NCBI GenBank assembly: GCA_030535245.1
Contig: JAUNBJ010000004.1
Location: 1-64,000, forward strand
DNA: 64,000 nt
DNA from: Planctomycetia bacterium
GTDB taxonomy: Bacteria > Planctomycetota > Planctomycetia > Pirellulales > Thermoguttaceae
Direction: 5' to 3'
Below are positions 57,163 to 60,505 of this stretch, piece by piece. Position numbers and translations under genes: made by a program. Position 1 is the first letter of the stretch. Every line of letters begins with the position of its first letter. The notes below the pieces were generated by a model. That model ran no database searches and had not been told where the DNA came from. It saw nothing but the letters and a program-made list of their open reading frames with translations.

Positions 57163-58683
57163 TTATTTTTCACGTACCATTCGGTTTACGGCGTCGAGGA
57201 AGGCCAGAATGGTCGCCTCGATACAGTCCGTGGAAAAGCCGCGGCCGCGATATTCCCGACCGTTCCAGTCCACGGCCACGTTGACTTCCCCCTGTGCGTC
57301 GTGCCCGACCGTGACGCTGTGAACCCGATATTCGCGGCATGTCATGGCGTACCCGGTCAGATCGCAAATGGCCAAAAACAGGTCGTCGATGGGGCCGTCG
57401 CCGCTGGAGCTGTCTTTCACTTCCAGTACCGAATCCCCATGACGCAGTTTCAGCGACACGACCGGTTTGCGATCCGAACCGCTGCTGCATGTGTACGACT
57501 CCAACGTCCAGCGAACCGCCTCGTCCGCCAGCAGCACCCGTTGAATCAGTGTACGAATGTCGGCGTCGTAAATATCTTTTTTGCGGTCGGTGAGGACTTT
57601 GAACTGCTCGAAAAGGGCCTTGAGCTGGTCGTCGTCCAGCGTGTACCCCAGCGCCGCCGCCTTTGCGGAAAGGGCCGCCCGCCCGCTGTGCTTGCCCAGC
57701 ACCAGATCGGTCTGCGTGAATCCCACCATCTCCGGACGCATGATTTCATACGTCGTCGGATTTTTCAGCATCCCGTCCTGATGGATTCCCGATTCGTGTG
57801 CAAACGCGTTGCGTCCGACAATCGCCTTGTTCCGGGGCACTTCCAGACCGGTGATTCCGCTGACCAGCTGGCTGGCCGGAAGGAGCTTCTCGGTGATGAC
57901 CCGCGTTACCGCACGATAATAATCCCGCCGCGTGTTCAACGCCATGACGATCTCCTCCAACGCGCAGTTTCCCGCCCGCTCGCCGATGCCGTTGATGGTG
58001 CATTCTACTTGCCCCGCCCCCGCTTCAACCGCACAAAGCGTGTTCGCCACCGCCATGCCCAGATCGTTGTGACAGTGGATACTCAGCACCGCCTGCTCGA
58101 TGTTCGGTACCGAACGCCGTAATTCCCGAATGATTCCCGCAAACTGCTCTGGAACGGCATACCCTACGGTGTCCGGAATGTTGATCGTTTTGGCCCCGGA
58201 ACGGATCGCCATTTCGACGACCCTGCAAAGAAAATCCATCTCCGTACGGGACGCGTCCTCGGCCGAAAATTCCACGTTCGGACAGAGTTCCGCCGCCATG
58301 CGGACGTACCCTTCCGTATGCTGGAGGATTTCGTCCTGCGTCATGCGCAGCTTGAACCGACGATGGATTTCGGAGGTCGCCAGAAATACATGGATGCGGG
58401 GGTTTTCCGCTTCCCGAATCGCTTCCCAGGCGGCCTGGATGTCTTGCGTTTTGCACCGAGCCAAGGCACAGACCGACGAACCCTTCACCGCCCTGGCAAT
58501 CTGGCGTACCGACTCGAAATCACCGGGCGAAATGACAGGGAACCCCGCCTCGATCACGTCCACCCCCAACCCTGCCAACATCTCCGCAACGCTGATTTTT
58601 TCCTGGGTGTTCATGCTGGCGCCGGGCGACTGCTCGCCGTCGCGAAGTGTGGTGTCGAAAATGACAATGGGACGTTCGGACAT
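57163..58683 (-). CDS. leuA: 2-Isopropylmalate synthase
   Basis: 506 residues. The TIM-barrel DTTLRDGEQSPGASM (catalytic metal Asp, substrate Arg) comes first. HCHNDLGMAVANTLCAVEAG (metal His residues) and NGIGERAGN follow. AFAHESGIHQDG lies next, and the C-terminal allosteric domain starts at about 385. It catalyses the first committed step of leucine synthesis from 2-oxoisovalerate and acetyl-CoA, and leucine inhibits it through the C-terminal domain. CAGGAG precedes the ATG at 58683. A Leu-rich leader peptide and terminator upstream add transcriptional control. Confidence 0.96.
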   Translation of the reverse strand: MSERPIVIFDTTLRDGEQSPGASMNTQEKISVAEMLAGLGVDVIEAGFPVISPGDFESVRQIARAVKGSSVCALARCKTQDIQAAWEAIREAENPRIHVFLATSEIHRRFKLRMTQDEILQHTEGYVRMAAELCPNVEFSAEDASRTEMDFLCRVVEMAIRSGAKTINIPDTVGYAVPEQFAGIIRELRRSVPNIEQAVLSIHCHNDLGMAVANTLCAVEAGAGQVECTINGIGERAGNCALEEIVMALNTRRDYYRAVTRVITEKLLPASQLVSGITGLEVPRNKAIVGRNAFAHESGIHQDGMLKNPTTYEIMRPEMVGFTQTDLVLGKHSGRAALSAKAAALGYTLDDDQLKALFEQFKVLTDRKKDIYDADIRTLIQRVLLADEAVRWTLESYTCSSGSDRKPVVSLKLRHGDSVLEVKDSSSGDGPIDDLFLAICDLTGYAMTCREYRVHSVTVGHDAQGEVNVAVDWNGREYRGRGFSTDCIEATILAFLDAVNRMVREK

Positions 58684-58723
58684 GATTTGAACTCCTGTAA
58701 AAAGGTGCCTGAAAATAATCCAT

Positions 58724-58850
58724 AAAAAAAACCCTGAAATCACTTCGGCGATTTCAGGGTTTGTGTTTGACTTGTCTGGATGGTTTTGAAAAATCACTTC
58801 CAGCTTTGGGTACAGCACCGACCCTGACCACGCCGCAAAAGCGGCAGGGT
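58724..58850 (-). promoter_or_regulatory. leuA transcription attenuator (segments 1-4)
   Basis: Four matching blocks follow the Leu codons on the minus transcript. Segment 1 is ACCCTG (58845-58850), segment 2 CAGGGT (58821-58826), segment 3 AAACCCTGAAATC (58750-58762) and segment 4 GATTTCAGGGTTT (58729-58741) followed by Ts. Pairs 1:2 (pause), 2:3 (antiterminator) and 3:4 (terminator) are all possible, as in classical amino-acid attenuators. Confidence 0.85.
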
Positions 58851-58892
58851 AAGCAACAGGCCGACGGTAAGCAAAACAGGGTAATTTTTCAT
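58794..58892 (-). CDS. leu leader peptide (attenuator)
   Basis: A 32-residue frame with eight leucines in a short block, VLLTVGLLLTLPLL, from residue 6 to 19. It lies right after the promoter and before the terminator of leuA. The predicted transcript start is within about three bases of the ATG at 58892, so the message may be leaderless. A ribosome waiting for charged leucyl-tRNA would cover segment 1 and allow the antiterminator to form. The rest of the peptide (RRGQGRCCTQSWK) has no known role. Confidence 0.8.
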   Translation of the reverse strand: MKNYPVLLTVGLLLTLPLLRRGQGRCCTQSWK

Positions 58893-58901
58893 AACGCCGT
58901 G

Positions 58902-58929
58902 ATTCTATCATTTCTATCTCCCCTGTCAA
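58902..58929 (-). promoter_or_regulatory. Promoter of the leu leader and leuA
   Basis: On minus TTGACA (58924-58929) and TAGAAT (58902-58907) are 16 bases apart. The expected start is at or within a few bases of the leader ATG. Confidence 0.8.
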
Positions 58930-59113
58930 GCGGGTGCGACGCAGCAGGTGCGATCCCAATTATGGGAAGGGGTATTCCTGTCCGTATGAAAAAACAGTGA
59001 AAATAGATAAACTATTCCGTTCGTACGGATTCTATTGCTTTTTCTGATTTTTCCTGCCGATACTGTTGGTAAAGATAGTAAAAAAAGAACCACGTTCTGC
59101 GGAACAAAATACC

Positions 59114-60505
59114 ATGAAACGTTTATGCCTCACCTTTGTTTGCCTGTTTGGGGGTACGGCACTTTTCCAAAGTCCGGTGTTTTCCGAGGAAATCCCTGCC
59201 GATCTGATTGCCCGATTCGAGCAGCTTGAAAAAGAAACCGAAGCCATGCGCACCGAGCTGGCCGCGTTGAAAAAAGAAAAATCGTCACAAAAAACGGAGC
59301 TTTACCAGCCGGTCGAGGAAACGAAAACGCCGTCGCAGGAAATTCATGACGAGGTGGCCCGGCAGGTTCAGGAAAGTGCGTGGAAAAAAGGGGAAGCGTA
59401 CATCCGGCCTTACGGCATGTTCTGGGCGTCGTTGATTGGTGCCGACGCGCGGTTCGCTCCGGCCGACAGCGTGAAAATGATCCTCCCCGGCGACGCATAT
59501 GGGCAGAGCGTTTGCACCGTGGCGGCTCGATGTTCGCGGTTGGGAATCGACGTAAAAGCCCCCGACGCCCCGATTCTGGGTGGGATGGAGATGTCCGGAC
59601 GACTGGAAATCGACTTTATGGGCGATCTGGGTGCGGTGGAAAACAAGCCAAGCGTTCTCATGCGGCACGCCTACTGGAAAATGGAGAACGATACGTTCCT
59701 GTTCCTGGTCGGCCAAACGAACGACGTCATTTCGCCGCTGAATTCCGGATCGTTGAATTATTTTGTCAACTGGTTTGCCGGAAATATCGGCTACCGGAAC
59801 CCACAGATTCTGTTCGGGCGTTTCTTCTATCCGAGCGAACGGATGCGGGTGGATTGGAAAGTTTCGCTCAGCCAGCTCTGCGGTTCCGACTTCAACACCA
59901 GCGACCATGCCGGCCGTTACCCCACCATCCAGACCCGTTTGGGATGGACGATTGCCAGCTGCGATCCGGAGCAGACTCCGATTCAGTTCGGCATTTCCGC
60001 CCACATCGGCGAACAGTGCTACAACCTGGCCCTGCTGCATGGTACGGAGGACGTCACGATAGACACGTGGTCGGTGAACGCCGATTTGACGCTCCCGTTG
60101 ACGACCCGGTTCGGAATCCGCGGCGAGGTGTTCCATGGACAAGGGCTGGCGGGGGTCAACGGCGGCGTGGATCAGAGCGTGGATTTTTCCCTGCTTCGGG
60201 TGGCTGACGCGTCGCTCCGGAGCATTCACGCCACGGGGGGCTGGGCGGAAATCTGGTGGGACTTGACGCGGAAAGCCAAACTGACGGTCGGTTATGGAAT
60301 CGACAACCCGCTCGATTCCGACATGGACGTGGCCCCGATTCGGAGCAATTCGGTTCTTTACACGAATATCGTTTACCAATTCACACCGTTTTTACGAACG
60401 GGAGTGGAGTACAGTTATTGGAAAACGCTCTATCGCGAAGGGTACGTTGGCGGCGACGTGGGAAAAGCGAACGTGGTTCAATGGATGTGGCAGTTTGAAT
60501 TTTAG
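59114..60505 (+). CDS. Outer-membrane porin-like protein (DcaP-like)
   Basis: 463 residues from the ATG at 59114. The signal peptide is MKRLCLTFVCLFGGTALFQS (cleavage near VFSEE). A short coiled coil follows (FEQLEKETEAMRTELAALKK), as in trimeric DcaP-like porins. The mature part is a beta-barrel pattern of alternating strands: YIRPYGMFWASLIG, SGRLEIDFMGD and FLVGQTNDVISPL. It ends in VVQWMWQFEF, a C-terminal Phe typical of outer-membrane barrels. It is likely a pore for small anionic or aromatic solutes. It has no clear ribosome-binding site and is divergent from leuA. Confidence 0.8.
   Translation: MKRLCLTFVCLFGGTALFQSPVFSEEIPADLIARFEQLEKETEAMRTELAALKKEKSSQKTELYQPVEETKTPSQEIHDEVARQVQESAWKKGEAYIRPYGMFWASLIGADARFAPADSVKMILPGDAYGQSVCTVAARCSRLGIDVKAPDAPILGGMEMSGRLEIDFMGDLGAVENKPSVLMRHAYWKMENDTFLFLVGQTNDVISPLNSGSLNYFVNWFAGNIGYRNPQILFGRFFYPSERMRVDWKVSLSQLCGSDFNTSDHAGRYPTIQTRLGWTIASCDPEQTPIQFGISAHIGEQCYNLALLHGTEDVTIDTWSVNADLTLPLTTRFGIRGEVFHGQGLAGVNGGVDQSVDFSLLRVADASLRSIHATGGWAEIWWDLTRKAKLTVGYGIDNPLDSDMDVAPIRSNSVLYTNIVYQFTPFLRTGVEYSYWKTLYREGYVGGDVGKANVVQWMWQFEF

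Follow-up and report, generated by a model that had tools for sequence, protein, structure and literature searches.

The window analysed here, a 64,000 nt stretch of DNA from a planctomycete of the order Pirellulales, carries on its minus strand between positions 58929 and 58724 a promoter, a short leucine-rich leader ORF, a set of competing helices and an intrinsic terminator, in that order, followed downstream by leuA with its own Shine-Dalgarno (SD) site (Table 1). The gene leuA is named from knowledge of its family and is taken to be the 2-isopropylmalate synthase gene with which leucine synthesis starts. The promoter, the Leu-rich frame of 32 residues, the alternative hairpins and the terminator with its T-run had all been described in an earlier sequence-only reading, and each was recovered at the position given there, on the minus strand. 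Between the leu promoter and a divergent gene ending at 60505, the window also contains a short perfect inverted repeat, TCCGTTCGTACGGA (59016-59029), which is terminator-like on both strands.

Table 1. Features of the leuA leader locus, in window coordinates.
Feature	Position	Strand	Remarks
-35 hexamer TTGACA	58924..58929	-	TTGACA or TTGACG in 7/8 congeners; TTGTAA in L002
Extended -10 TGATAGAAT	58902..58910	-	hexamer TAGAAT 58907..58902, preceded by TGA; -10 to ATG gap 9 nt
Predicted transcript start zone	58892..58897	-	from promoter spacing
Putative leader ORF (leuL), 32 codons, MKNYPVLLTVGLLLTLPLLRRGQGRCCTQSWK	58794..58892	-	ATG 58892..58890, stop TGA 58796..58794
Putative sensor codons: Leu at leader residues 7, 8, 12-14, 16, 18, 19 (8 codons)	58836..58874	-	
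Strand 1, ACCCTGCCGC	58841..58850	-	pairs with strand 2; 1:2 hairpin -16.2 kcal/mol
Strand 2, GGCGTGGTCAGGGT	58821..58834	-	partner of strand 1 or strand 3
Strand 3, AAACCCTGAAATCGCC	58747..58762	-	5' arm of terminator; antiterminator partner is strand 2
Intrinsic terminator and U-tract	58724..58762	-	3:4 hairpin 58762..58729, -21.4 kcal/mol
leuA SD site AGGAG	58692..58696	-	~30 nt past terminator
leuA, putative regulated gene, start MSERPIVIFDTTLRDGEQ	57163..58683	-	ATG at 58683; relatives at 54-83% identity

The -35 and -10 hexamers are separated by a spacer of 16 nt and match the consensus at 11 of 12 bases, giving a promoter score of 15.2 against a mean of 7.0 and a maximum of 13.5 for 200 shuffled sequences, under a scoring scheme that assumes an E. 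coli-like sigma-70. The runner-up among separate promoter-like sites within 300 nt upstream in the window scored 7.0. Only CACGGCGTT lies between TAGAAT and the leader ATG. The transcript is predicted to start at 58895, approximately 7 nt past the -10 hexamer and 3 nt before the ATG, and the start zone as a whole (58897-58892) would leave a 5' UTR of 0-5 nt; as a prediction, this agrees with the earlier placement of the start at the leader ATG or beside it. The eight Leu codons fall within leader residues 6-19. Counting both strands, the window contains 728 ORFs of 12-60 codons, and the leader ORF was alone among them in having at least seven Leu within 14 residues. The terminator hairpin comprises 15 pairs and a 4-nt loop and is followed by a run of eight T, and the fold of leader plus terminator reached -66.4 kcal/mol (z = -6.3), a stability equalled by none of 200 dinucleotide shuffles.

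The behaviour of the leader under ribosome stalling was simulated by folding the RNA available with the polymerase just short of strand 4, the ribosome being represented by a footprint of 13 nt counted from the first base of the A-site codon. When Leu codons at leader nt 34-46 occupied the A site, strands 2 and 3 paired ahead of the ribosome in an antiterminator of -30 to -34 kcal/mol, which beats the terminator alone (-21.4), and stalling deeper in the Leu run gave progressively weaker antiterminators of -21.1 and then -16.5. With no ribosome present, the leader folded on itself through the 1:2 pairing, leaving strand 3 free so that the terminator formed; with the ribosome at the stop codon there was no competitor ahead, 1:2 pairing was possible behind, and the terminator again formed. 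These simulated states are those of the classical attenuator. As the minimum-energy structure of the full-length leader always retains the terminator, antitermination must be kinetic, as it is in known attenuators. Extending the calculation to 126 leaders from the genus and its relatives gave a mean fraction of strand 3 paired upstream of approximately 0.8 under a Leu stall, and of 0.11 (genus) and 0.24 (others) with the ribosome at the stop codon. The Leu-stall value was reached by at most 1 of 20 shuffles in 80 of the 126 leaders, with a slight bias toward the observed value because the best Leu codon was used for each leader. In the congeners L003 and L007, the Leu-stall antiterminator was no better than that obtained with shuffled upstream sequence (reached by 7/20 and 5/20 shuffles, respectively).

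To place the locus in an evolutionary context, DNA upstream of leuA was compared among relatives drawn from the genus (8 genomes), family, order, class and phylum, using an automatic rule that called a leader where at least four Leu occurred in 10 residues and a terminator followed the stop codon. The expectation from the window that a Leu run would recur upstream of leuA in related genomes was borne out, with the leader present in all eight genomes of the genus and a Leu-rich ORF plus terminator found at 114 of 150 scorable loci across the order and class, compared with four of 150 dinucleotide shuffles and one of 150 reverse complements under the same rule. A stricter rule retained 90 of the 150 loci and none of the shuffled or reverse-strand controls. 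A chance origin of the leader is ruled out by these shuffle and reverse-strand controls together with the window-wide ORF count. Leaders were also found in other families of the class and were rare in other classes of the phylum; they were weak or absent in one outgroup family of the class and missing from several leuA clades, such as L103-L121 and the L029/L142/L156 clade. Some of the leuA clades lacking a leader come from the window's own family. Since the arrangement recurs in most of the examined genomes of the order, the switch is taken to be real, and the interpretation of the locus as a leucine attenuator, first proposed from the window alone, is strongly supported by this order-wide conservation and by the stall simulation.

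Across the class, the Leu run is retained while the peptide sequence varies. The usual pattern of the peptide among congeners is M....F..LLLT.PLGGDW, with the window and genome G005 as exceptions. Outside the genus the peptide is typically M..NLLPLLLLAL..RRP, TAGGGTTCG comes next, and the terminator there starts with CGAACCC, so that the region of the stop codon can act as strand 2. At the leuA locus of G005 (L008), the leader and terminator lie 621 nt upstream of leuA, and similarly long gaps occur at L020, L033, L042 and L043; another element may be located between the distant leader and leuA at these loci.

The proximity of promoter and leader ORF is also a property of the whole genus. The gaps between the -10 hexamer and the ATG in the eight genomes are 9, 7, 7, 7, 10, 9, 9 and 6 nt, so that a start placed 7 nt past the -10 would give a 5' UTR of 0-4 nt, and promoter spacing overall predicts 0-5 nt in every case. 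Promoter scores, again assuming an E. coli-like sigma-70, were 13-15.5 in seven of the eight, and in six no shuffle out of 200 scored as high; L002 has a weak promoter (9.3, a score reached by 13 of 200 shuffles). The leader start codon is ATG in all eight congeners, and an SD sequence was absent before it in each of them, with matches of just 3-4 nt, whereas leuA at the same eight loci is invariably preceded by an SD match of 5-6 nt. A comparable layout was seen upstream of trpE in two genomes of the genus. In G003 (L304) the arrangement is TTGACG-17-TACAAT-7 nt-ATG with the peptide MKIEIVHTFRIFSWLWRRFARTGMVC, and in G005 (L305) it is TTGACT-16-TATAAT-6 nt-ATG with the peptide MKNLNSVTSRFWWWRS. 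Downstream of both leaders there is a terminator-like hairpin with a T-run; no such Trp leader was found in the trpE upstream region of the window's own genome (L302). The layout shared by these Trp leaders indicates that the leaderless arrangement is not peculiar to leu in the genus. Upstream of ilvB in the same genus genomes, a comparison that leaves out L297, where the match begins inside the gene, there was no convincing leader, and the gene has a promoter distant from its start, a good SD and an ordinary SD-led start. The proposal that the leader peptide is translated from a leaderless transcript is therefore supported for the genus at the level of sequence, by the 6-10 nt gap in all eight congeners, by the lack of an SD before the leader compared with its presence before leuA, and by the two Trp leaders.

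The window alone did not reveal that most relatives have the same attenuator but a longer 5' UTR. In most other Pirellulales leaders, 28-66 nt separate the best -10 from the start codon, with no clear SD, while short gaps appear on several separate branches of the order, and parsimony on the leuA tree requires nine changes to account for the leaderless layout. The 28-66 nt gaps in most relatives and the nine changes rule out the leaderless leader as an order-wide feature, and with such gaps in most other Pirellulales leaders, leaderlessness looks like a recurrent variant. A handful of the automatic leaderless calls made beyond the genus are doubtful, since promoters scoring 9-10 are marginal, and the call at L010 takes a GTG upstream of a likelier GTG that follows AAGGAG. 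In a comparative study that included one planctomycete genome, Planctomycetes were among the phyla with few SD genes and among those with signs of leaderless or S1-driven initiation (PMC5397173).

These relatives bear directly on the strongest alternative, namely that the locus is the same Leu attenuator but is not leaderless, with transcription starting farther upstream and the leader translated from an ordinary SD-less 5' UTR. A longer SD-less 5' UTR is evidently workable in the order, as most relatives are predicted to have one. However, the strongest promoter of each of the eight congeners is 6-10 nt away from the ATG, in the window no separate site within 300 nt upstream approaches the score of the leu promoter, and the spacing is matched in the G003 and G005 Trp leaders, which together make a distant start unlikely in the genus. 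Considerably less probable is leucine control that does not involve translation of the ORF, by a T-box, a riboswitch or a LEU-like protein-bound structure, in which case the Leu-rich ORF would be incidental. In its favour, the leader is highly structured, and mutations in the Streptomyces coelicolor leuA leader reportedly did not behave as classical attenuation (PMC1262725). Against it, the leader matched no Rfam family at threshold, the best cis-regulatory match being Phe_leader at 17.3 bits against a gathering value of 55, and the Leu run is both maintained across the class despite the varying peptide and placed where a stalled ribosome would cover strand 1. None of the Rfam leader families came near its threshold, and no T-box was listed up to E = 10. 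The locus differs from the actinobacterial LEU element, which has no terminator, in having one approximately 30 nt before the leuA SD. It is scarcely credible that the ORF instead encodes a small hydrophobic peptide that has a function and a terminator of its own and plays no part in the control of leuA by leucine, even though membrane peptides can be Leu-rich and 15-30 residues long: the ORF holds a constant place before leuA, a terminator lies 30-60 nt past its stop codon, the leader is complementary to the terminator arm, and ilvB in the genus genomes is preceded by no such ORF.

The reading that we consider quite probable is a classical ribosome-mediated attenuator of leuA, whose leader ORF would be translated from a leaderless or nearly leaderless transcript. 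In the mechanism that we infer, from the precise point of transcription initiation through translation of the ORF and stalling to the response to leucine, RNA polymerase would start 0-5 nt ahead of the leader AUG and a ribosome would load at the 5' end of the transcript without an SD site. When charged tRNA-Leu is scarce, the ribosome would stall in the Leu run (codons 12-19) and cover strand 1, allowing the 2:3 pairing to form, blocking the terminator and permitting transcription of leuA. When leucine is plentiful, the ribosome would reach the stop codon, the 1:2 hairpin may form behind it, and the 3:4 pairing would stop transcription at the U-tract ahead of leuA.

A second conserved block was observed between the attenuator and leuA at 44 Pirellulales leuA loci (L014, L010, L026, L025, L049, L058 and approximately 38 more), 120-320 nt before leuA, but not in the window's genus. 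The block codes in one frame for P-[TS]-R-A-[WRH]-L-[VAL]-L, summarised as PTRAWLVL. Single-base codon differences in this frame comprised 1211 synonymous and 611 non-synonymous changes, compared with 563:1190 and 376:1692 in the other two frames, a contrast somewhat inflated by the selection of loci on the peptide pattern in the coding frame. The coding signal ends at the last Leu codon and is directly followed by a hairpin with compensatory changes, its arms varying among GCCGACC..GGTCGGC, CCCGGG..CCCGGG and GGCCCAGA..TCTGGGCC. Of 58 genomes, 11 had a single match to a DNA pattern for the block and none had two, the matches lying within a few hundred nt upstream of leuA; the block is thus single-copy and specific to leuA. 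This second uORF looks like a leucine-sensing ORF, and is possibly part of a leucine-sensing module without a terminator. A broader and more tentative reading, toward which we lean slightly less than away, would combine three propositions: that the leu and trp leader ORFs of the genus are leaderless as a class, that control of leuA by a ribosome close behind the polymerase is ancestral to Planctomycetia, and that in many Pirellulales outside the genus this control has been doubled by a second leuA-specific ribosome-sensing module, consisting of the P-[TS]-R-A-W-L-V-L uORF and its covarying hairpin, between the attenuator and leuA.

Attenuation needs a ribosome that trails the polymerase by at most a few tens of nucleotides, and the retention of the attenuator across most of the Pirellulales implies that ribosomes follow RNA polymerase closely in planctomycetes. 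The retention of a leader-peptide attenuator in most Pirellulales, as well as in further families of the class, provides genomic evidence for tight planctomycete coupling, and would offer a simple reporter with which coupling could be tested; the inference leaves the case of Gemmata unsettled, as one outgroup family has weak or absent leaders. The leader ORFs of the genus appear wholly dependent on SD-independent initiation at the 5' end, and the genus and its relatives with longer 5' UTRs, bearing the same device, constitute a natural comparison of two modes of initiation.

The leaders of classical enterobacterial leu attenuators are SD-led. As in the enterobacterial leuL-leuABCD system and the Rfam Leu leader class, the planctomycete locus has a Leu run in a short leader ORF, 1:2, 2:3 and 3:4 helices and an intrinsic terminator before leuA, with the same predicted logic, but its leader has a different sequence that falls below the threshold of every Rfam model, lacks an SD and has a predicted 5' UTR of 0-5 nt. 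Leaderless leader ORFs for leu, trp, ilv and others have been described in Streptomyces lividans, in which LeuL1 precedes leuA and LeuL2 precedes leuS, both leaderless by RNA-seq (PMC8079986). The planctomycete leader resembles LeuL1 in being Leu-rich and upstream of leuA, and its predicted transcript start would make it leaderless, as LeuL1 is by RNA-seq; however, LeuL1 has no typical terminator, and the actinobacterial leuA leader, likewise without a terminator, may not operate by classical attenuation (PMC1262725). The actinobacterial LEU element is a pseudoknot in which the Leu run is paired to the leuA SD, whereas the planctomycete leader has a complete terminator and antiterminator. The trpL (rnTrpL) attenuator transcript of Sinorhizobium meliloti begins at the AUG of the leader ORF (PMC7298713), and differs from the present case in sensing Trp, in belonging to an alphaproteobacterium and in having a measured rather than a predicted start. 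In the openly accessible literature searched, there was no report of planctomycete leucine attenuation, nor of any planctomycete in which a leaderless leader is combined with a complete leucine attenuator that includes its terminator. This agrees with the earlier suggestion that no planctomycete example had been described, although leaderless leu and trp leader peptides are on record from Actinobacteria and Rhizobia. Leu attenuators, and leaderless leader ORFs in other bacteria, are therefore already known, and what appears to be new is their predicted combination in a planctomycete.
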